From: Streptomyces sp. NBC_01276
Lineage (GTDB): Bacteria > Actinomycetota > Actinomycetes > Streptomycetales > Streptomycetaceae
Direction of reading: 5' to 3'
Assembly (NCBI RefSeq): GCF_041435355.1
Contig: NZ_CP108445.1
Span: forward strand, 1 to 64,000
DNA length: 64,000 nt
Every line of letters begins with the position of its first letter. Position 1 is the first letter of the stretch. This document shows positions 50,855 to 60,723 of the stretch, one piece after another. The position numbers and the translations under genes were made by a program. The notes under the pieces were generated by a model. It was not told the DNA's origin, ran no database searches, and was given only the letters and a program-made list of their open reading frames with translations.

Positions 50855-51367
50855 CTACGCTGCTGCCTTCATCATCACCGCGTATACCGGGGAATCCGCG
50901 AAGGGCTGGTTCTCCCCGATCTTCCGGTAGCCCCAGCCTTCGTACATCGCCTGAAGGCGGGGCCGTTTGGTGTCCACTGTGAGGACCGCCCACGTCTCGG
51001 GGCGGCCGCTGAGAAGAGCGTCGTGCAGGCGCGGACCCAGTCCGGTTTTCCGCCATTTCGGGCGCACCATCAGCTCTGAGACGGAGAAGGTGGACGACTC
51101 CTGCGGCGTTGTCTCAAGGTGTCCTTGCCACCACTCCCGCCCTGGGGTGGCCGGGGCGCCGTAGGAGAACCCGACGGGCACGTCTTGTTCCCAGGCGATG
51201 ACGCAGGAGAAGCCGGGGTTGGCGCCCCAGTGGTCGACGAACCAGGGGAAGCGCTGTACGAACTCCTCGTGCCGGCGATCGGCGTACGCGTCCTCGTGTA
51301 CGTCAAGGAGGGTCTGGCGGATGTCGCCGAGGTCGGTGTGGCCGTAGTGCTTTATCTCGGTGGTCAC
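50855..51367 (-). CDS. GNAT-family N-acetyltransferase
   Basis: A 170-residue protein with the GNAT fold: a helical N-terminus (DIRQTLLDVHEDAYADRRHE), FSCVIAWEQDVPVGFSYGAP, FSVSELMVRPKWRKTGLGPR (the acetyl-CoA binding strand and loop) and LYVDTK-like VLTVDTKRPRLQAMYEGWGY at the end. The GTG overlaps the stop of the regulator gene (GTGA), so the two are coexpressed. The substrate is unknown; neighbours do not decide it. Confidence 0.8.
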   Translation of the reverse strand: MTTEIKHYGHTDLGDIRQTLLDVHEDAYADRRHEEFVQRFPWFVDHWGANPGFSCVIAWEQDVPVGFSYGAPATPGREWWQGHLETTPQESSTFSVSELMVRPKWRKTGLGPRLHDALLSGRPETWAVLTVDTKRPRLQAMYEGWGYRKIGENQPFADSPVYAVMMKAAA

Positions 51368-52617
51368 GAGGCGCTCCATTGGGTGCGGTATTGGTCTGCC
51401 CACTCCCGGGCCGCCTGGGCGGAGGGGGCGGTGGTGAACAGCGTGCGGTGGAAGTCGCCGAGCATCGTGCGCAGGCGCCCGGGCAGCGGGTCGCCGGCCA
51501 TCAGCTCGAAGGCGTGGCCGGTCGTGGCGCATGCCTGCTCGACCTCGCCCTGGTGGAGTTGAGCGGAGGCGAGGCGGACCGTGGTCATCGACCGGTTTCG
51601 CCGCAGTCTCACGGACAGGGAGGCGAGTGCCTGGTGCGATGCTGCTTCGGCGTGTGCAGGCTCGCCAAGGAGTTCACGGACGATCGCGGTGAGTGCCGCG
51701 AGTTCGGCTGGTCCGTAGAAGCTGATCCATGACGGGCTCTGGGTGGTGGGGTCTGCTTTCGCGAGGGCGGCTTCCGCGTGCCCAAGGGAACGCAGCGCGG
51801 GCTGTCTGTCCCCGCATGAGGCGTGCCCGATCGCGGTCCGGGCGTGCGCGAGAGAGGAGAACAGGGGGTTGCGGCGGGCGGCAGTGGTGGCCTGCGCGGC
51901 TTGAGAGGCGGCGATGCCCTCGCCGTACTCGTGGCGCTGATGCGCGAGCATCGCGGTGGAATTCCAGACCCGCAGCTGCGCCGTGGAGTCCTGCGCCATG
52001 CCCGCCATGCGCAGAGCCTCACTCAGGTGGACACGGGCCCGGTCCAGTTGCCGGGCGTCGATGCAGGACCACGCCGCCGATGCCGTGTAGTGGGCGGCCA
52101 CCGACAGAAGCCGCTGCCGTACGGTCTGTGAAACGGCGTTGCGCTGCAGCCCGATGGCCTCTGCTGCCCCGGCGAGCGCGGCTCTCTCCAGCGCGGCATG
52201 CCCTCCCCGGGACTGGTCGAGGGCAGTCAGGGTTGCCATCCCCTCACGGAGCCGGACCACATCCGAGGTGCCCACCGACCGGCGGCCCGCGACCTTCGAG
52301 ACGGAGCCGATGACCACGCCAGTGGTGGCGGTGCAGAAGGAGCGGCGGAGCACAGATTCCTCCGGTGGTGCGGCAGCAGCGGTCGAGGCGAAACCTAAGT
52401 CGCCGATCGGGCATCCGAACACCCGCTCCAGGGCGACCCTGGTACGCCCGATCGGGCGCCGGGTGGCGCCGCTGACCAGGTTCCTCACAGTGCGGGCCGA
52501 GACATCCCCCAGGCGGCCGGTGATCTCCAGCAGAGCGGCGTTCATCTGAGCTGCCAGTTCCTCCTGGGTGAGGCCCCGCTCAGCCATCCGCGCCCGTAAG
52601 GCGGCGTTCTCCGTCAT
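51364..52617 (-). CDS. XRE regulator with TPR-like C-terminus
   Basis: A 417-residue regulator. The HTH is near the N-terminus (RMAERGLTQEELAAQMNAAL, DVSARTVRNLVSG). The remainder is a series of helical repeats (tetratricopeptide-like; ARVHLSEALRMAGMAQDS, EAALAKADPTTQSPSW). This type is common in Streptomyces. It is coexpressed with the GNAT gene. No Shine-Dalgarno precedes the ATG at 52617, but TACGTT lies eight bases upstream, so a leaderless transcript is possible. It may or may not control the RiPP operon 1.3 kb away. Confidence 0.75.
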   Translation of the reverse strand: MTENAALRARMAERGLTQEELAAQMNAALLEITGRLGDVSARTVRNLVSGATRRPIGRTRVALERVFGCPIGDLGFASTAAAAPPEESVLRRSFCTATTGVVIGSVSKVAGRRSVGTSDVVRLREGMATLTALDQSRGGHAALERAALAGAAEAIGLQRNAVSQTVRQRLLSVAAHYTASAAWSCIDARQLDRARVHLSEALRMAGMAQDSTAQLRVWNSTAMLAHQRHEYGEGIAASQAAQATTAARRNPLFSSLAHARTAIGHASCGDRQPALRSLGHAEAALAKADPTTQSPSWISFYGPAELAALTAIVRELLGEPAHAEAASHQALASLSVRLRRNRSMTTVRLASAQLHQGEVEQACATTGHAFELMAGDPLPGRLRTMLGDFHRTLFTTAPSAQAAREWADQYRTQWSAS

Positions 52618-52891
52618 GGCACAGAACGTAGCGAGCAAGTCACCCGCAGACGAGAGGGCCAGGTATTGCGACCGTAAAGTCTTCCGGTCGCATGCGCCCA
52701 CCGCGCCCGCCACTCTTCCTGTCACCAGCGGCTTTGGCGCCGTTGACTGGTCATCGTGCCGCCCGGGGCCGAGTTGGTCGACCCCCTACCCCCGGGCGGC
52801 AGCACCTCTCGCATCACCGCGGCGCCGGACGCGCCGCGCGGTGACTGCCTGCGTGGATCTGGGACACGAACGTCACCTTCGGGAGGCCCTC

Positions 52892-53311
52892 ATGCCGGAC
52901 ACCTTCGCCGCCTTCAGCGCCCTCATCCCGCCCGGGGCGGGGGCGGCACCGGTCGGCTCGGTAGCGGTGTACGCCGTCGTCCCGTCCGAGGCCGACTGCG
53001 CACAGGTACTGGACGGACTGCGGTCCTACGCCGCTGGACGCGGCTGGCACGTTCCGGCCGGCTGCGCGGCGACGGATGTCGGCCCGCTCGGCGCGGGCCT
53101 GAACCGGTCGGGGTGGCGGCGGGTGCGGCGCGCGGTCCAGGCCCAGGCGGTCACCGGGCTCGTCGTGCCCTGCTTCGCACACATCGGCTACCGGTGGGCG
53201 GACTGGGACCGCGAGCGGACGTGGCTGCTGCGGCGCGGGCTCTTCGTCATGGCCACCGATCCCACCGAACTGCACGTCGGGATCTCCCCGGAGGAAGTGA
53301 TCCGCCCGTGA
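52892..53311 (+). CDS. Resolvase-like hypothetical protein
   Basis: A 139-residue protein with the outline of a serine-recombinase N-terminal domain (VAVYAVVPSEADCAQVLDGL, RSYAAGRGWHVPAG, VQAQAVTGLVVPCFAHIGYR), but the catalytic Ser of this family (RxS) is replaced by V-P-S in another context and the C-terminal DNA-binding domain is absent. It could be a degenerate or repurposed resolvase fold. GGGAGG precedes the ATG. Its stop overlaps the next GTG. Confidence 0.5.
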   Translation: MPDTFAAFSALIPPGAGAAPVGSVAVYAVVPSEADCAQVLDGLRSYAAGRGWHVPAGCAATDVGPLGAGLNRSGWRRVRRAVQAQAVTGLVVPCFAHIGYRWADWDRERTWLLRRGLFVMATDPTELHVGISPEEVIRP

Positions 53312-53763
53312 GCGGCTACCACGGCGTCGTGCACGATCCGGAGGGGCGACTCGGGCACGAGCTGCCACTCGACCGAGAGCCGCACCTGCGACTGGCCGCT
53401 TCGGCCCTGTCCTGGACTGCGCAGTCGGTGCCGCCGGCGGCAGACACCGCTCTCACCGTGCTGGAGCTGACCGGGCATGCGCGGTTGCTGCGCGACGAAC
53501 TCGCCGACCAGGTCGAGCGGCTGCCGGCTGACTGCGAGCTTCGCCAGCCGCTCGCCCACACCTTGGATGAGGCACAGCGCCGGCTGACGCCCGCGGCGAC
53601 ATCCCCGTGCGGTGATCTCACCCACGCACACAACCGCGCCCGCCTCGTCCAGAACCTCTACACCGCGCTGGACCGGCTGGAGGCAGAGCACCCCGTACGC
53701 GGCTCGTGCCCTCACCCGCGGCCCGGCACACGAGCCCACGAGGACCGCCCCCTCGGCGGCTGA
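53308..53763 (+). CDS. Hypothetical helical protein (151 aa)
   Basis: A 151-residue soluble protein made of helices (LRLAASALSWTAQSVPPAAD, LTGHARLLRDELADQVERL, RARLVQNLYTALDRLEAE). The GTG overlaps the previous stop. Family not recognised. It precedes the RiPP precursor by 126 bases and may belong to that operon or just be its neighbour. Confidence 0.55.
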   Translation: MSGYHGVVHDPEGRLGHELPLDREPHLRLAASALSWTAQSVPPAADTALTVLELTGHARLLRDELADQVERLPADCELRQPLAHTLDEAQRRLTPAATSPCGDLTHAHNRARLVQNLYTALDRLEAEHPVRGSCPHPRPGTRAHEDRPLGG

Positions 53764-53889: not shown

Positions 53890-54003
53890 GTGGAACAGTC
53901 CAAGTCCAGCCTCGCCGCCGCCAGCACCTCGGCATCGGTGGAGGGCACCGAGACCATCACCCAGCCCATCGTCGTCGCCGTCGACGTGGAGGACGAGGAG
54001 TAA
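53890..54003 (+). CDS. Candidate RiPP precursor peptide (37 aa)
   Basis: A 37-residue frame with GAAGGAG five bases before its GTG. It starts MEQSKSSLAAASTSAS, continues VEGTETITQP and ends IVVAVDVEDEE. It has no Cys and no membrane helix; Ser/Thr/Ala make the first part, and a hydrophobic IVVAV is followed by an acidic tail. It lies directly before TfuA and YcaO genes in the same direction, which is how RiPP precursors are normally placed. A leader/core border could lie near VEGTET, but this is not decided by sequence. It is too short to be called by most gene finders. Confidence 0.65.
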   Translation: MEQSKSSLAAASTSASVEGTETITQPIVVAVDVEDEE

Positions 54004-54031
54004 TCCCCGCCCGCCCGTAGCCCCCTGACAT

Positions 54032-54082
54032 GGGCGCCCCTCCCGTTCCACACGCCCCTCGTGGGCCCAGGGAGGGGCGCCC
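54032..54082 (+). terminator. 13-bp hairpin between the precursor and tfuA
   Basis: GGGCGCCCCTCCC (54032-54044) and GGGAGGGGCGCCC (54070-54082) pair perfectly across a 25-base loop. There is no U-tract. In RiPP operons a partial terminator or RNA-stability hairpin after the precursor gene gives more peptide than enzyme, so it may set that ratio here. Confidence 0.6.
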
Positions 54083-54106
54083 CTGGCACTTCACCGCGGA
54101 GGCGCA

Positions 54107-55357
54107 GTGATTCACCTCTACACCGGGCCGACGCTCTCGGCGTCCGAGCCCGCACTTGCAGCACCAGGCCTGCGGGTGCTGCCCCCGGCACGGCACGGCG
54201 ACCTGTTCGACACCGCGATCGCCGCCGGCGACACCGTCGTACTCATCGACGGGGCGTACCACCAGGCACCGGCACTCAGGCACAAGGAGATCCTGGCCGT
54301 GATGGGCCGGGGCGTCACGGTGCTGGGGGCGGCGAGCATCGGCGCGCTGCGGGCGGCCGAGCTGGCGCCGTACGGCATGGTCGGCGTCGGCAGCATCTAC
54401 ACCGCCTACGTCCGCGGGGACATCGACGGGGACGACGAGGTCGCGGTCGGGCAGGCCCCCGACGGAGCGTTCGCTGCGCTGACCTGGCCGCTGGTCAACC
54501 TCCGGTACGTCCTGGACCTGGCGGTCGCGGCCAGGGTCCTCGACGGCGTGCGGGCCGCCAAGTTGCTGGCGGCGCTGCGCGCGGTCTACTACCCGCAGCG
54601 CACCGGGGCCGCCGTGCGCGCCGTGTGCCGCCGCGAGGGCGAGGAGGAGTTCGCCCGGTGGCTGACCCGGCAGCGTAAGCAGGATCAGCACTTCGGCGAC
54701 CTCAAGCGGGCCGACGCGCTCGCCGCCGTACGCGCCGCGCTCGCCGGCACTGCTGCGCCGCAGGCGTCCACCGGGCTGCCGGTGGGGGAGACGGCGTACT
54801 TCCGGCGCTGGTCGAATGCCGCCGTGCGTGAACGCGTGGACGGCGTGGAGCTGTCCACCGAGGACCGCGTGGTCTACCAGCAGGTCTTCGACCCCGCCTT
54901 CGGTACGCGGTGGACCGCCTACCTCGAACACCTCTCCCGGCATCCCGCCGACGGAGAACCGGGGATGCCGCTCGCCGAACGCCTGGCCCGCGCAACGGGC
55001 GGTCACCTGAGCGCCCACCGGGTCTTCCACCCGGCGGTCGACCTGCGGGATCCGCAGACGGTGGCGCTGCTGCTGGCGGGCGAAGGCGCGGCAGACCGGC
55101 GCGCCGTCGCCCGGTATGCCGAGGTGCTCGCGCATGCCCGCCACAGCCGCCCCGGTTTCTGCGCGAACGCGGTCCACGACAGCCTGGCCCGCGACCTGCT
55201 GTTGCAGGTGTGGGGCTGCTCGGAGGAGGAGCTCGATGCACAGGCCTCCGCCCGCGGACTGGTCCGGGCGGCCGGCGCGGTGGAGGCGGCCAAGCAACTC
55301 GTGCCCGGGTTCCTGGACGAATCGAACAGAACGGAGGCGGCCCATGCCGGGCGTTGA
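54107..55357 (+). CDS. TfuA-like protein, partner of YcaO
   Basis: A 416-residue protein. The TfuA domain fills about residues 1-215: VVLIDGAYHQAPALRHKEIL, then GAASIGALRAAEL (about 74-86), GMVGVG (90-95) and DDEVAV (108-113). TfuA proteins work with YcaO enzymes in backbone thioamide formation (methyl-CoM reductase, thioviridamide-type RiPPs), probably by supplying sulfur. The remaining 200 residues are an extension seen less often. GGAGG precedes the GTG. Overlaps the ycaO gene by 14 bases, so the two are coupled. Confidence 0.85.
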   Translation: MIHLYTGPTLSASEPALAAPGLRVLPPARHGDLFDTAIAAGDTVVLIDGAYHQAPALRHKEILAVMGRGVTVLGAASIGALRAAELAPYGMVGVGSIYTAYVRGDIDGDDEVAVGQAPDGAFAALTWPLVNLRYVLDLAVAARVLDGVRAAKLLAALRAVYYPQRTGAAVRAVCRREGEEEFARWLTRQRKQDQHFGDLKRADALAAVRAALAGTAAPQASTGLPVGETAYFRRWSNAAVRERVDGVELSTEDRVVYQQVFDPAFGTRWTAYLEHLSRHPADGEPGMPLAERLARATGGHLSAHRVFHPAVDLRDPQTVALLLAGEGAADRRAVARYAEVLAHARHSRPGFCANAVHDSLARDLLLQVWGCSEEELDAQASARGLVRAAGAVEAAKQLVPGFLDESNRTEAAHAGR

Positions 55358-56492
55358 GGAGCCGGTGGCGCTGGCGGGCACCGTACGGGCGCGAACGGCG
55401 GAGCAGACCTGGGCGGCGGTTGCCGACCACCTGCCGGGATTCGGCATCACCCGGGTCGCGGACCTGACAGGCCTGGATGTGATCGGGCTGCCGGTGTGGA
55501 CGGCGATCCGCCCCGCCTCGAAGACCCTGAGCACCTCGCAGGGCAAGGGCGCCACACCCCTGCTGGCGAAGCTGTCCGCAGTGATGGAAGCGATCGAACT
55601 GTGGCACGCCGAGCAACCGCTGCCCGCCGCTGCGGTGGGCCCGGCCGTCGAGGTCGCCCCCCACTGCCCGGTGGCCGCGCTACCACTGACCGCCCCCCAT
55701 CCCGCTGACGCTCTGGCCCGGGTGGTGTGCGAGTGGACGGCCGGCACCACGCTGCTGAGCGGAACGACGACGCTGCTGCCGACCGACCTGGTCCGGCGCC
55801 GCGGCCAGCGCCCCGCGTGGACCCCGGACGTGTGGCGCGCGACCAGTACCGGACTCGCGTGCGGCAACACCCGCGACGAGGCGCTGCTTCACGCCTTGTT
55901 CGAGGTGGCCGAGCGTGACGTGCTCTACCGGGACGGGCAGCAGCACGGACGGCTGCGCACGCTGATCGACCCGGGCACGGTCGACGACCCGCACGGCCAG
56001 GAGGTGATCGGCCGTCTCCGTGCCGCAGGCATGGCCCTGGAGGTGTCGCTGGTCGACGGCCCGTACGGGCTGCCGGTGTGCCTGGCCTACCTGTGGTCGG
56101 AGGACTACCCGGTGCTCTTCGCCGGCGGCGGATGCCACAGCGTCCCCGGGATCGCGCTGACGCGGGCGGTGACCGAGGCCGCGCAGTCCAGGCTCGCCGC
56201 CATCGCAGGAACCCGGGACGACCTCCCCACCGCCCCGCCCGCCTTCGACACCCCCTCTGTCCCGCAACCAGAGCCTGGCCGGCCTGAGGCGTGGCCGGAG
56301 GTTGCGGCCCGCTACAGGCCGCCTGGCGGCGGCTTCGCCGACCAGGTCCGCGCCGTGGCCCGGCGCTTCGAGTCCGTCACCGGACACCAGCCCGTTGCCC
56401 TGGACCTGTCCGGCCCACACTGCCCGGTCCATGCCGTGCAGGTCCTGTGCCCCGGCACCCGCTCCCGGATCAGAAGGTCGATGCCCCGATGA
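55344..56492 (+). CDS. YcaO-type ATP-dependent peptide-modifying enzyme
   Basis: A 382-residue YcaO-fold protein, starting MPGVEEPVAL with ACGGAGG upstream; a longer open frame is an artefact of overlap with tfuA. ATP/Mg motifs are visible: SQGKGATPLLAKLSAVMEA (65-83) with EAIELWHAE, and STGLACGNTRDEALLHA (168-184) followed by LFEVAERD. Such enzymes use ATP to activate peptide-bond oxygen. With TfuA the expected product is a thioamide, though cyclodehydration cannot be excluded. No E1-like or F protein is present. The C-terminus lacks the PxPxP tail of azoline-forming YcaOs, in line with a TfuA-type enzyme. Confidence 0.9.
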   Translation: MPGVEEPVALAGTVRARTAEQTWAAVADHLPGFGITRVADLTGLDVIGLPVWTAIRPASKTLSTSQGKGATPLLAKLSAVMEAIELWHAEQPLPAAAVGPAVEVAPHCPVAALPLTAPHPADALARVVCEWTAGTTLLSGTTTLLPTDLVRRRGQRPAWTPDVWRATSTGLACGNTRDEALLHALFEVAERDVLYRDGQQHGRLRTLIDPGTVDDPHGQEVIGRLRAAGMALEVSLVDGPYGLPVCLAYLWSEDYPVLFAGGGCHSVPGIALTRAVTEAAQSRLAAIAGTRDDLPTAPPAFDTPSVPQPEPGRPEAWPEVAARYRPPGGGFADQVRAVARRFESVTGHQPVALDLSGPHCPVHAVQVLCPGTRSRIRRSMPR

Positions 56493-57349
56493 ACACCCAT
56501 AGCCCCGCGAGGTCGGCCGAGTACGACGCCTTCCACGCCGCCCGAGCCCGCACCGACGTCGTGGCACGCCTGTACGCCGAGGCGATGGGCGAGGACTACC
56601 CCGCCGAGGTCGCCGCATCCAGCTCCTGCGACTGGCCCCTGCTCGGCCTCCTGGCCGCCCGGCTGCGGATGCGTCCCGGTCAGCTGCTCGTGGACGCCGG
56701 ATGCGGTACCGGCGGCATCGGCCTGTGGCTGGCCCGCGCCCTCACCGTCCGCCTGCACGGCTTCGACCTCTCGCCCGTCGCCGCCGCCCAGGCCGCCGCC
56801 CGCCGCACCCACTTCCTCGGCCCGCACGCCGGCCGCGCCCACTTCCGCGTCGCAGAGCTGGAGGACACCGGCCTGCCGGACGGCTGCGCTCACGGCATCT
56901 TCTGCGTGGACGCCCTTGGTCGCGCCGCCGACCGCGGGGCGGCGCTGCGCGAGCTGGGCCGGCTCCTGGCCCCGGGCGGCGCTCTGGTGGTCACCCGTGC
57001 ACTGCGGCGCGGCGCCGACCCTGGGTGGCAGCACGAGCTCGCTGCCGCCGGACTGACACAGGAGCACGTAGACGAGCGACCCCGTGAACCCGCAATGTGG
57101 GAACGGCTCTACCGCCTGTGGATCGCCCACGCCGATCAGCTGCGCCGCGAACTGGGCGAGACGGCCGCCGAGAACATGCTCCGCGAGGCACACCAGAAGC
57201 TCCCCACCCTGCCCGGCCGACGGGCCGTCCTGCTGACCCTGCGCCGCCCTGCAGAGGCCCCGGCCGGGCCCGGGGCGGCCGATAGGATGGGCGAGGGCGG
57301 CCGCCAGGGCGGCGACAGGCCCGTGCCCGACGAGAGGACCCCGCAGTGA
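56489..57349 (+). CDS. SAM-dependent methyltransferase
   Basis: A 286-residue class I methyltransferase. Motif I is LVDAGCGTGGIGLWLA (near residues 66-82), followed by LHGFDLSPVAAAQ and LVVTRALRRG. A long C-terminal region (residues 190-286) contains WERLYRLWIAHADQLRRELG, perhaps for substrate recognition. It is coupled to ycaO through ATGA and to the dehydrogenase through GTGA. It would methylate the peptide, for example its N-terminus, a side chain or sulfur. The exact target is open. Confidence 0.8.
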   Translation: MNTHSPARSAEYDAFHAARARTDVVARLYAEAMGEDYPAEVAASSSCDWPLLGLLAARLRMRPGQLLVDAGCGTGGIGLWLARALTVRLHGFDLSPVAAAQAAARRTHFLGPHAGRAHFRVAELEDTGLPDGCAHGIFCVDALGRAADRGAALRELGRLLAPGGALVVTRALRRGADPGWQHELAAAGLTQEHVDERPREPAMWERLYRLWIAHADQLRRELGETAAENMLREAHQKLPTLPGRRAVLLTLRRPAEAPAGPGAADRMGEGGRQGGDRPVPDERTPQ

Positions 57350-58359
57350 ACCAGGACCGTCCCGCCCGCGCGGCGGTGTTCTCGGCCGGTTCCTGGGGCA
57401 CCGCCGTCGGCAAGATCATGGCCGACACAGGCACCCACGTCGTCATGCACGCCCGGCGAGCCGAGATCGCCGACGCGATCAACACGACACACCACAACCC
57501 CGGGTACTTCCCCGACATCGAGCTCCCGCACACGGTGAGCGCCACCACCGATCCGGCCACCGCGCTGGACGGCGCCGACTTCCTCGTCCTGTCCATCCCC
57601 GCCCAGTCCCTGCGCACCAGCCTGGCAGCCTGGGCCCCGCACATCGGTCCGGACACAGTGATCGTGTCGCTGATGAAGGGCATCGAGACCGGCAGCGGCC
57701 TGCGGGCCAGCCAGGTAATCACCGAAGTGACCGGCATCCCCACCGAGCGGATCGCGGTGCTGTCCGGCCCGAACCTGGCCCGCGAGATCATGGACGGCCA
57801 GCCCGCAGCCGCCACCATCGCCTGCCCCGACGAAGCCGCCGCCCACCGCGTCCAGCGGGCCTGCCACACCCCGTACTTCCGCCCCTACACCTCCGCCGAC
57901 GTCATCGGCTGCGAACTGGGCGGCGCCGTGAAGAACGTCATCGCCCTCGCGGTCGGCATCGCCTCCGGCATGGGGCTGGGCCACAACGCGCAGGCCATGC
58001 TCATCACCCGCGGCCTCGCGGAAACCACCCGCCTGGCCACAGCCATGGGCGCCCACCCCTCCACCCTCGCCGGACTCGCCGGACTCGGCGACCTCGTGGC
58101 CACCTGCTCCTCCCCGCTCTCCCGCAACCGCACCTTCGGCCACCACCTCGGCCAGGGCATGACGATGGCCGAGGCCACCGCCGCCACCCGCCAGACCACC
58201 GAGGGCGTCAAGAGCGCCCAGGCGATCCTCGCCCTGGCCGACACCCACAACATCGAGATGCCGATCACGAACGTCATCTCCGCCCTTCTGCACGAGAAGG
58301 TCACCCTCGACCAGGCCGCGGGCGCGCTGATGCAGCGGCCCCCCAAGCCCGAGCAGTGA
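57346..58359 (+). CDS. GpsA-like NAD(P)-dependent glycerol-3-phosphate dehydrogenase homologue
   Basis: A 337-residue protein of full GpsA length. The dinucleotide loop reads FSAGSWGTAVG, with Ser in place of the first Gly of the usual GAGSWG. SLMKGIE (108-114), GPN (141-143), GGAVKNV (with the catalytic Lys near 196) and GLGDLVATCSSPLSRNR (246-262) are intact, so the enzyme should be active. A chromosomal gpsA is expected elsewhere; this copy lies inside a RiPP operon, between methyltransferase and membrane genes. It may act on a phosphorylated or ketone intermediate. Whether it serves the RiPP is inference. Confidence 0.8.
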   Translation: MNQDRPARAAVFSAGSWGTAVGKIMADTGTHVVMHARRAEIADAINTTHHNPGYFPDIELPHTVSATTDPATALDGADFLVLSIPAQSLRTSLAAWAPHIGPDTVIVSLMKGIETGSGLRASQVITEVTGIPTERIAVLSGPNLAREIMDGQPAAATIACPDEAAAHRVQRACHTPYFRPYTSADVIGCELGGAVKNVIALAVGIASGMGLGHNAQAMLITRGLAETTRLATAMGAHPSTLAGLAGLGDLVATCSSPLSRNRTFGHHLGQGMTMAEATAATRQTTEGVKSAQAILALADTHNIEMPITNVISALLHEKVTLDQAAGALMQRPPKPEQ

Positions 58360-58432
58360 TCCCCGCGGCACCCCGCACCCCGGGGCCCGCCGCTCCTCAC
58401 CCTCACCCTCCCGACCCGGAGGTCCCTCACCC

Positions 58433-58789
58433 ATGCGCGAATCCGTGCTGCCCGCCGTCCAAACCGCCGCCACCCTCGCCCTCGTAGCCTGGATGATCAC
58501 CGGCTTCACCCCCGCGCCCGGCCGCTGGCTGCGCTGGAAGATGTTCTGCCGGGCCACCTTCACAATCGTCGAGCTCACCGGCATCACCAAGAACGGCGCC
58601 ACCGAGACGGTCAACGTCTACGACCACCTCTCACCCGGCTCCTTCATCCTGGGACCGCCCCAGCTCCAGGCGATCCTCGACCACCTCACCGCAAGCGGCC
58701 GCTACGAACGCATCGACGGCACCGGACGCGTCCTGTCCGCCCGCGGCGAGCAGCCCGTGAAGGTGGTGGCCGGCCGTGTGGTTCTTTGA
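58433..58789 (+). CDS. Small membrane-anchored protein of the RiPP operon
   Basis: A 118-residue protein. The N-terminal helix (VLPAVQTAATLALVAWMITG) probably inserts in the membrane. The rest is a soluble domain (FTIVELTGITKNGATETVNV, QLQAILDHLTASGRYERIDG). CGGAGGTC precedes the ATG. Its end overlaps the HTTM gene by 14 bases, so the two proteins are coexpressed and may form a pair. Family not recognised. Confidence 0.65.
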   Translation: MRESVLPAVQTAATLALVAWMITGFTPAPGRWLRWKMFCRATFTIVELTGITKNGATETVNVYDHLSPGSFILGPPQLQAILDHLTASGRYERIDGTGRVLSARGEQPVKVVAGRVVL

Positions 58790-59630
58790 CGCGCTCCTCT
58801 CCGGCTTCACCCGCCCCACCGACCCGGGCAGGCTCCAGCTGTTCCGGATCACCTTCGCCACCGTGCTCACCGCCCGGTTCACGCTCGCCCTCGGCCAAGG
58901 CGGCTGGGACCGCCTCACCCCGGGATCACTCAGCCTCCACCTCACCGAACAGCGCTTCGGACCCCGACGGGCCCAGCTCCTCGCGAGCGTGTACCGCCCC
59001 ACCCTGATCCTCCGCACGATCGCCGCCCTCACCCTGGCCGCCGGATTCGCCCCCCGCCTCGCACTGCTGGCCGCCCTGGCCGGCGCCGCCATGGAACTGG
59101 TCTACCTCCGCAGCCCCAACGCCGTCCGCTACACCCTGCTGACCGGCGCATGCCTCGCCGTCGGCGGCAACCTCGGCCACGGCCTGACCATCGAGCACAC
59201 CCCGAGCACCGCGAACACGTGGGCCCTGTGCCTACTCGTGCTGATCACCACGGACATCTACTGGAACTCCGCCTGGCAGAAACTCCGCAGCCCCCAGTTC
59301 CGCACCGGCCTCTACCTCGCCCAATGGATTCACACCTACACCAAGGTCCGCGAACGCCTCCCGCACGCCCGAGGGCAGTACGCGGTCCCGGCATTCGTCC
59401 GCCGACACCTGGGCAACCTCACCGACCGAGACATCCGCATCTGGCGCCTGGCAGCCGCGACCGTCATCGCGGCCGAACTTGTGCTGCCGGTCGCGCTGTC
59501 CATCCCGCAGACGATGCCGTATGCCGTCGCCGCCGGCATCGCGATGCATGCGGCGTTCACCTGTCTCAAGCCCCGCCAGCTCATCACCTTCTCCGGCCTG
59601 ACCCTCGGCACGTACGTCGCCTTCGGCTGA
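58776..59630 (+). CDS. HTTM-domain membrane protein
   Basis: A 284-residue protein with the layout of the HTTM family (horizontally transferred transmembrane domain, related to the membrane part of vitamin-K-dependent gamma-glutamyl carboxylase): LQLFRITFATVLTARFTLA near the start, about six hydrophobic helices (LALLAALAGAAMELVYL, ALCLLVLITTDIYWNSAWQK, VIAAELVLPVALSIPQ) and a C-terminal LITFSGLTLGTYVAF. It is half the size of animal carboxylases and lacks their luminal domain. GTG start, coupled to the preceding gene. Last gene of the RiPP operon. Confidence 0.75.
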   Translation: MWFFDALLSGFTRPTDPGRLQLFRITFATVLTARFTLALGQGGWDRLTPGSLSLHLTEQRFGPRRAQLLASVYRPTLILRTIAALTLAAGFAPRLALLAALAGAAMELVYLRSPNAVRYTLLTGACLAVGGNLGHGLTIEHTPSTANTWALCLLVLITTDIYWNSAWQKLRSPQFRTGLYLAQWIHTYTKVRERLPHARGQYAVPAFVRRHLGNLTDRDIRIWRLAAATVIAAELVLPVALSIPQTMPYAVAAGIAMHAAFTCLKPRQLITFSGLTLGTYVAFG

Positions 59631-60723
59631 CTTCAACTGCGCGATCTGGGACGTACGCGAGGCCCGCTTCGCGGACGGGCTCGCCGCGTGCCGCCGCTAC
59701 CGCGACCACCACGGCGACCTCGCCGTCCCCGTCAATCACGTCGATGCCGAGGGATACAACCTCGGTGACTTCATCGCCTACCAGCGGGGCTTGGCCGCGG
59801 GCAGCGTTCGCGACCCCTCCGGCCGACCCCGCACCCTGGATCCCGAGCGCCGTACCGCCCTGGACGAACTGGGCATGGTCTGGGCCGCCGCCACCCCGAA
59901 GCGTCCTCCCACGCAGGAGGAAATCGCCGCCCTGCGAGCCTTCCCCCACCAGCGCGGCAAACCGTTCGCCGAAGCCCTCCTCGCCCTAGTCGAAGCGGGC
60001 GTCGAACAGAAGGCACTCGCCGAAGCCTTGGCCCTCAACACCAGCACCCTGAGCCAGCGGCTCAAGCGCGCCCGAACCAACGTCTACGCCGTCGACCCCT
60101 TCGCCCAGCACCTTGATGCCGCCCGCGCCTTCCACGAACGCCACGGACACCTGAGGCCACTGGAGACCTCCGACGACCCCGAAGTCCGCAGCCTCGCCGG
60201 TTGGCTGACCGGACAACGCGGCGCCCGCCGCAACGGGCAGCTAAGCGACAAGCAGATCGCAGCCCTGGACGAACTCGGGATGGACTGGGAGCCCCTGGGA
60301 TCCCGCTGGCAGCAAGCCCTCCAGGCTGCCCGCAGCTACCAGCAGGAGCACGGACACCTCCGCCCCCCGACCGGCACGACCGTCAGCGGAGTCGACCTGC
60401 CTGTATGGCTCCGCCGCCAGCGCACCGCCCACCAACGCGGCACCCTCCCGCCAGACCGTGTCGCCGCGCTCAATGAACTCGGCATTGACTGGACTCCCGG
60501 CCGCGGCGTCGCCGACGTACGGATCGATCAGGCCTGGCAGGCCCGCCTCGACGACGCCCGCCAGTACCAGGCCGCACACGGCCACCTTCGCCCGCCCGCC
60601 GGCACGAACGTCAACGGCAAACGCCTCGACGCCTGGCTCAACGTCCAACGCGCCCGCAACCGCGAAGGCCGCCTTACCCCCCAGCAGATCGCCGCCCTTG
60701 ACGAGCTGGGTATCCACTGGTGA
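59631..60723 (+). pseudogene. Helicase-associated-repeat protein fragment lacking its N-terminus
   Basis: The frame encodes four repeats of the helicase-associated (HA) type: FADGLAACRRYRDHHGDLAV, then HLDAARAFHERHGHLRP, ALQAARSYQQEHGHLRPPTG and RLDDARQYQAAHGHLRPPAG, each ending with LDELGMDW-like motifs. The first repeat begins immediately after the HTTM stop and there is no ATG, GTG or TTG before it in frame, the first candidate being a TTG at 59791. HA repeats are normally the tail of large DEAD/DEAH helicases on Streptomyces linear plasmids and near chromosome ends. This is probably a 3' remnant joined here by a deletion. Confidence 0.65.

Follow-up and report, generated by a model that had tools for sequence, protein, structure and literature searches.

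A TfuA-YcaO peptide cassette of Streptomyces, often carried on plasmids, that may include its own resistance copy of glycerol-3-phosphate dehydrogenase

The window analyzed here, by which we mean the whole stretch of 64,000 nucleotides at positions 1 to 64,000 of contig NZ_CP108445.1 of Streptomyces sp. NBC_01276, contains a cassette of seven genes, all on the forward strand. They encode a short peptide, TfuA, YcaO, a methyltransferase, a glycerol-3-phosphate (G3P) dehydrogenase (GpsA), a small membrane protein and an HTTM-like membrane protein. The cassette is shared by many Streptomyces, often on plasmids, and intact copies of its gpsA persist in decayed loci. As a whole, it is best explained as a mobile cassette for a ribosomally synthesized and post-translationally modified peptide (RiPP) with built-in self-resistance, an explanation that we regard as about evenly poised between right and wrong.

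The genes that a first-pass annotation of this DNA had placed at 53890..59630 were all recovered there when coordinates and overlaps were checked and the proteins were searched against Pfam and NCBIfam profiles:

53890..54003, forward strand: precursor peptide gene, 37 amino acids, GTG start; N-terminal SKS and C-terminal VVxAVDVEDEE conserved
54032..54082, forward strand: RNA hairpin predicted by folding in the interval between the precursor gene and tfuA; putative attenuator or stabilizer
54107..55357, forward strand: tfuA, 416 amino acids, by family a thioamidation partner (PF07812, E value 2.5e-41)
55344..56492, forward strand: ycaO, 382 amino acids, by family an ATP-dependent backbone thioamidation enzyme (PF02624, E value 1.6e-56)
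56489..57349, forward strand: class I S-adenosylmethionine-dependent methyltransferase, 286 amino acids (PF13649 Methyltransf_25, E value 1e-13)
57346..58359, forward strand: gpsA, paralogue of NAD(P)H-dependent G3P dehydrogenase, 337 amino acids (NF000942, 451.7 bits)
58433..58789, forward strand: small membrane protein, 118 amino acids, predicted N-terminal helix and soluble domain
58776..59630, forward strand: HTTM-superfamily membrane protein, 284 amino acids, GGCX-like transmembrane fold, invariant K169

The adjacent tfuA and ycaO overlap by 14 nt, ycaO and the methyltransferase gene by 4 nt, the methyltransferase gene and gpsA by 4 nt, and the two membrane protein genes by 14 nt.

Conservation and distribution of the cassette

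Relatives were gathered by YcaO and their wider regions mapped, which gave 31 rows including the window and 29 distinct loci, since L085 duplicates L051 and L089 duplicates L037 with the same gene map. YcaO is at least 49% identical to that of the window in nearly all 29 loci, and a single YcaO clade (support 100/99) takes in all of them as against 23 other TfuA-linked YcaO proteins. The common core consists of the precursor, tfuA, ycaO, the methyltransferase gene and gpsA. The methyltransferase gene is present in 28 of the 29 loci (missing from L037) and gpsA in 26, the exceptions being L037 and the contig ends L028 and L092. The small membrane gene (17/29) and the HTTM gene (15/29, one cut short) occur in one sub-clade only. 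Stops appeared in the automatic open reading frame (ORF) calls of four rows: in tfuA of L095, in the methyltransferase gene of L038 and L094, and in gpsA of L035, there six codons short of the end.

The variant locus L037/L089 (genome G064) has ALAD-like, methyltransferase and porphobilinogen-deaminase-like genes in place of the methyltransferase gene and gpsA, about 1.4 to 3.9 kb after the ycaO start. We considered whether its HemB/HemC genes are a parallel case of a duplicated target; this idea is weakened by the ALAD-like protein, which seems to lack the catalytic lysines.

Among the matches listed, relatives of the whole cassette come nearly all from Streptomyces, with a few from Kitasatospora, Embleya and Amycolatopsis. 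The YcaO was found in 17 of 297 Streptomycetaceae genomes at an E value of 1e-60 (8 of them with at least 53% identity) and in 13 of 392 Streptomyces genomes at 1e-95. In the plasmid collection, 31 records contain the YcaO at 1e-60, and 17 span 80% or more of the complete cassette. The combination with a GpsA-like enzyme and HTTM, which had looked new in the first-pass annotation, is instead a widespread Streptomyces cassette.

TfuA, YcaO and the methyltransferase

Backbone thioamidation is the established role of TfuA-YcaO pairs (PMC5589413, PMC13174530). In the window, TfuA matches the TfuA domain structure 6xp8 (E value 2.5e-24), and the closest solved relative of YcaO is the archaeal MJ1094 (E value 5.9e-25); the best NCBIfam equivalogs for both proteins are the McrA-thioamidation pair, both under the cut-off. 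The strong tfuA and ycaO profile matches and the conserved precursor described below bear out the view of this operon as RiPP type, and family membership suggests that the peptide is thioamidated and methylated. The methyltransferase is the sole cassette protein to match defense-system profiles (mad2, E value 6e-16), a match that we attribute to a shared methyltransferase domain.

As the first-pass annotation had noted for the operon, no decarboxylase or kinase/lyase was found among the seven cassette genes and three flanking genes profiled, and no such family recurred beside the relatives' cassettes in ORF clustering, with no dedicated search of the flanks made. None of the seven cassette genes is a protease by profile.

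A conserved precursor peptide

The candidate precursor of the window (MEQSK...IVVAVDVEDEE) has a GTG start behind GAAGGAG. A homologous peptide lies upstream of tfuA in 25 of the 29 distinct loci, including L028, where the contig starts near the peptide. In a further locus, L038, the gene is apparently frameshifted, and none was found upstream of tfuA in L033, L034 and L037. A profile built from 22 sequences and run over L001-L098 gave matches with E values below 0.001 only at loci of this cassette. Of six plasmid loci fetched, three held-out ones (L169-L171) all matched, L174, which is without tfuA, did not, and L172 and L173 were left out of the run.

The peptide is conserved at its ends (SKS, and xDV followed by acidic residues) and variable in the middle. 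In the last 11 codons of 14 loci, pS was 0.38 and pN 0.06, which shows the tail to be conserved as protein. The short frame is more than a chance occurrence, because the gene order recurs in relatives and the tail is conserved in this way. The first-pass annotation had named the absence of a conserved small ORF ahead of tfuA in homologous clusters as grounds for rejecting its proposal; such an ORF is conserved, and the proposal of a precursor passes this check. Its description as free of cysteine holds for the window and only in part for the family, as 4 of 28 precursors carry a Cys close to the C-terminus. The last residues vary (-EE, -GP, -CYTF, -W, -DDPFVPA). A long stem is predicted 3' of the precursor stop in 21 of the 22 loci folded (the exception is L091), with z at or below -2 against shuffled sequences in only 17 of the 22 and a z of -2.7 in the window.

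The hairpin and the conserved acidic tail would also fit a regulatory leader, in which ribosomes stall on the tail ahead of the hairpin while the substrate of TfuA-YcaO is some other protein; the resemblance of YcaO to MJ1094 and of both proteins to the McrA-thioamidation pair points the same way. Against this stand the conservation of SKS and the C-terminal motif around a variable middle and variable ends, and the finding that no other small gene is widely conserved in the cassette, as judged by clustering of ORFs of at least 60 amino acids. We consider such a leader very unlikely.

The core also follows the membrane gene content. With the membrane pair, the precursor has three hydrophobic residues and then Ala before xDV (17/17); without it, Arg or Lys stands at the third place of the core (9/9). 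Pair status was taken from the small gene alone for L051 and L084 and from the annotation for L169; L097 was read by eye, since the pattern had caught an earlier DVE. The count leaves out the contig ends L028 and L092, together with L038, L033, L034 and L037. This association is a correlation only, because it may reflect a single event on the tree.

The cassette GpsA is a genuine and additional glycerol-3-phosphate dehydrogenase

The cassette GpsA exceeds the NF000942 cut-off (257 bits) by far and aligns to the solved G3P dehydrogenases 3k96, 1z82, 1evy and 1x0v; all 26 cassette copies retain the conserved active-site motifs. Cassette and housekeeping copies were both present in 11 of the 12 cassette genomes searched; the twelfth, G064, has the housekeeping enzyme only. 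The two copies of the window genome are 62% identical.

In the GpsA tree, the cassette copies of L091, L038, L093 and L094 group with housekeeping enzymes (support 100/99) and the other cassette copies stand apart. We do not claim two recruitments, or a replacement, as a tree with all cassette copies together was not rejected (AU test, p 0.115). Residues 140 and 200 consistently distinguish the cassette copies from the Streptomyces housekeeping ones and were considered as resistance sites; their cassette states, S and A, may be just ancestral, because they also occur in solved enzymes of other bacteria.

The enzyme described earlier as GpsA-like thus proves to be a genuine GpsA by family model, and a self-resistance copy seems likelier than a tailoring enzyme. 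A biosynthetic GpsA would provide sn-glycerol-3-phosphate, or carry out a keto reduction, so that the thioamidated peptide could be conjugated or tailored, with a glycerophosphate conjugate as one example. Its gene follows the methyltransferase gene with a 4-nt overlap and is present in 26 of the 29 loci, and the genes occupying this slot in L037 look as if building blocks had been swapped, all of which fits such a role. However, the hosts already own a housekeeping GpsA, no obvious G3P transferase is among the seven genes, and, as shown below, ten genomes have an intact GpsA without the biosynthetic genes; we consider this role rather unlikely. The open-licence literature of PubMed Central, the scope of all literature searches reported here, contained no paper joining GpsA with self-resistance or TfuA with G3P dehydrogenase, and a query for RiPP, precursor peptide and G3P dehydrogenase gave nothing related, judged by title.

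Intact gpsA persists in decayed loci

In the sample of 392 Streptomyces genomes, 16 encode a GpsA with 75% or higher identity to that of the window, six with and ten without the cassette YcaO. The flanks fetched for the ten orphan genes, roughly 4.5 to 9 kb in either direction, contained no TfuA or YcaO pieces in any case. Methyltransferase fragments adjoin six of them, and four have remnants of the small gene or the HTTM gene alongside, so that some cassette piece is found in eight of the ten and none at L214 and L218. The orphan proteins cover at least 325 of 337 residues, have no internal stop and keep K111, K196, D249 and R260. Their pN/pS to the nearest cassette copy is 0.12 to 0.36, the median of 160 cassette pairs being 0.34. 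The housekeeping gpsA is kept in all ten genomes. Conversely, G064 and G320, the latter with a contig end, are the only genomes of the sample with YcaO but no GpsA, and a single genome (G272) has a full-length HTTM gene without YcaO. In a further decayed locus, L225, the precursor and a gpsA (68%) remain beside a broken methyltransferase gene, with no TfuA-YcaO.

Taken as a whole, we read these data as selection for GpsA independent of the peptide pathway, most simply as resistance to the product. Several points weigh against this. GpsA is broken in G272 and in a second copy of G256; YcaO-less genomes found via HTTM have an intact GpsA in only 2 of 10 cases, and seven of them, beside G272, have no GpsA at the threshold. 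Moreover, the identity threshold itself favors intact genes, and pairwise pN/pS mixes the time before and after pathway loss.

Alternatively, orphan and cassette copies could be kept for a plain metabolic benefit, namely extra G3P for membrane lipid, independent of the peptide. This would explain the intact catalytic motifs and low pN/pS, but leaves the linkage with tfuA, ycaO and the methyltransferase gene across the family and on plasmids, and the housekeeping copy in all ten orphan genomes, unaccounted for. We judge it unlikely.

Two decayed loci deserve description. At L220 (G515), a decayed cassette with intact gpsA lies near both chromosome ends, as if in terminal inverted repeats. At L230 (G272), decay ran the opposite way, with HTTM full length and gpsA broken.

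The membrane proteins as a possible divided GGCX

Neither membrane protein has a firm profile match on its own. The HTTM-like protein of the window gave just a weak MauE match (E value 0.0028, under the cut-off); its placement in the HTTM superfamily instead rests on relatives, of which 29 of the 47 members of the alignment match PF05090 at E values of at most 0.05 (best 3.1e-5), and on a predicted model that matches the GGCX transmembrane fold. K169 is invariant in 47 of 47 sequences and aligns in profile comparison (E value 8.8e-5, probability 60%) to the HTTM Lys, whose aligned counterpart in GGCX is K218, the second K of GVKKLD (PMC12589487). The link is bridged through HTTM proteins of other loci, as searches of the HTTM-like and small-protein profiles against PDB sequences returned no GGCX. 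Unlike GGCX, the HTTM profile has Gly at the column of the Glu-binding H160, where the alignment of the window family itself is weak.

The small protein has one predicted N-terminal helix and a soluble domain with weak similarity to a portion of the luminal domain of GGCX; Foldseek gave no significant match for it and no GGCX among the best 50 matches listed. The HTTM-like protein probably forms the membrane half of a pair resembling GGCX, which is not known to have carboxylase activity.

In 11 of 13 loci (L156-L163 and L166-L168; six profiled), a bacterial HTTM gene has a DUF5819-type gene close by in the same orientation, and the two could possibly form a general two-gene GGCX-like module. 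These pairs resemble that of the cassette in the close upstream partner gene, whose product combines a hydrophobic N-terminal helix with a soluble part. However, the cassette protein is not a detectable DUF5819 relative, profile comparison having given nothing. Literature searches found a single paper joining HTTM with RiPP, no paper on DUF5819 and none joining carboxyglutamate with RiPP and Streptomyces.

Proposed pathway

Gene content, the conserved peptide, the intact GpsA motifs, the intact GpsA of decayed loci and the HTTM-like fold match are the observations from which we infer the following chemistry, target and resistance. The 37-residue peptide would be produced in excess over the enzymes, because it has its own Shine-Dalgarno sequence and a hairpin before tfuA. 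YcaO with TfuA would exchange O for S in the backbone of the conserved C-terminal part (VVVAVDVEDEE), and the methyltransferase would methylate the peptide. In the larger clade, the two membrane proteins might work jointly as a GGCX-type enzyme in two parts, which would use quinone and abstract a proton from the membrane-bound peptide substrate, leading to gamma-carboxylation of a tail Glu or to epimerization. A general host protease would remove the leader. The product would inhibit G3P dehydrogenase, and the cassette GpsA would be a tolerant copy guarding the producer. The full picture, of plasmid-spread GpsA-inhibiting peptides with a tolerant GpsA and a Glu-rich thioamidated core gamma-carboxylated or epimerized by a split menaquinone-using carboxylase relative, is quite unlikely to be right in every part.

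Should GpsA prove to be the target, the cassette would lead directly to a peptide that blocks the synthesis of phospholipid precursors, an idea that self-resistance opens to tests on purified enzymes. A membrane pair working like GGCX would provide a small bacterial counterpart, useful as a model, of an enzyme studied mostly in animals, and with it a novel type of peptide modification. With 17 nearly complete plasmid copies, the cassette is common enough for a convenient laboratory host to be picked.

Comparison with known systems

Thioamitides and thiovarsolins share with the cassette a TfuA-YcaO pair with a peptide substrate, but their partner genes and cores differ. The thioviridamide-like thioamitides have a C-terminal core Cys, absent from the window precursor, together with kinase/lyase and Cys decarboxylase genes.

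RiPPER Network 2 groups 25 peptides from Streptomyces, related to one another and scored highly by Prodigal, 6 of them annotated, that head a conserved TfuA-YcaO operon (PMC6511847, Santos-Aberturas et al. 2019). In the main text of that paper, the terms methyltransferase and membrane protein are absent and glycerol occurs only as a reagent. The cassette precursors may be this network, although the identity is a guess.

In the std cluster of S. thermodiastaticus, TfuA-YcaO likewise acts on a precursor with a conserved, partly cut-off C-terminal motif, but std uses an MNIO and a carbamoyltransferase-protease, and its motif is SNKEWQE (PMC13174530). HTTM proteins have been linked with linaridin epimerization; our literature search found no paper tying the two. 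Linaridin clusters with crdG also have an HTTM gene without a dedicated protease, but no TfuA-YcaO in the clusters as described in the available part of PMC9927463.

Genomic context

ORF clustering of the 31 rows showed that flanking genes are rarely common to loci. The commonest families were F6 (8/31 rows), F7 (4/31) and F8 (4/31); F6 and F7 lie mostly divergent upstream, and F7 includes a regulator of the window that is a possible candidate for control of the cassette:

51364..52725, reverse strand: NsdA-family TPR regulator, divergent, upstream of the cassette (NF053720, 295 bits, cut-off 75)

A DUF6415 protein is encoded at 53041-53760, upstream of the precursor, and a gene with three helicase-associated (HA) domains at 59791-60723, directly 3' of the cassette. 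The contig has 68,948 bases, in a genome of 9.4 Mb with eight YcaO matches in all; the seven besides that of the cassette are on the largest contig. The contig of the window may itself be a plasmid, because segments shared with Streptomyces plasmids, including a ParA gene, lie in the window's first 25 kb. Elsewhere, at L043 and L044, a methyltransferase 50-52% identical to that of the cassette is encoded on the opposite strand beside a different TfuA-YcaO pair.
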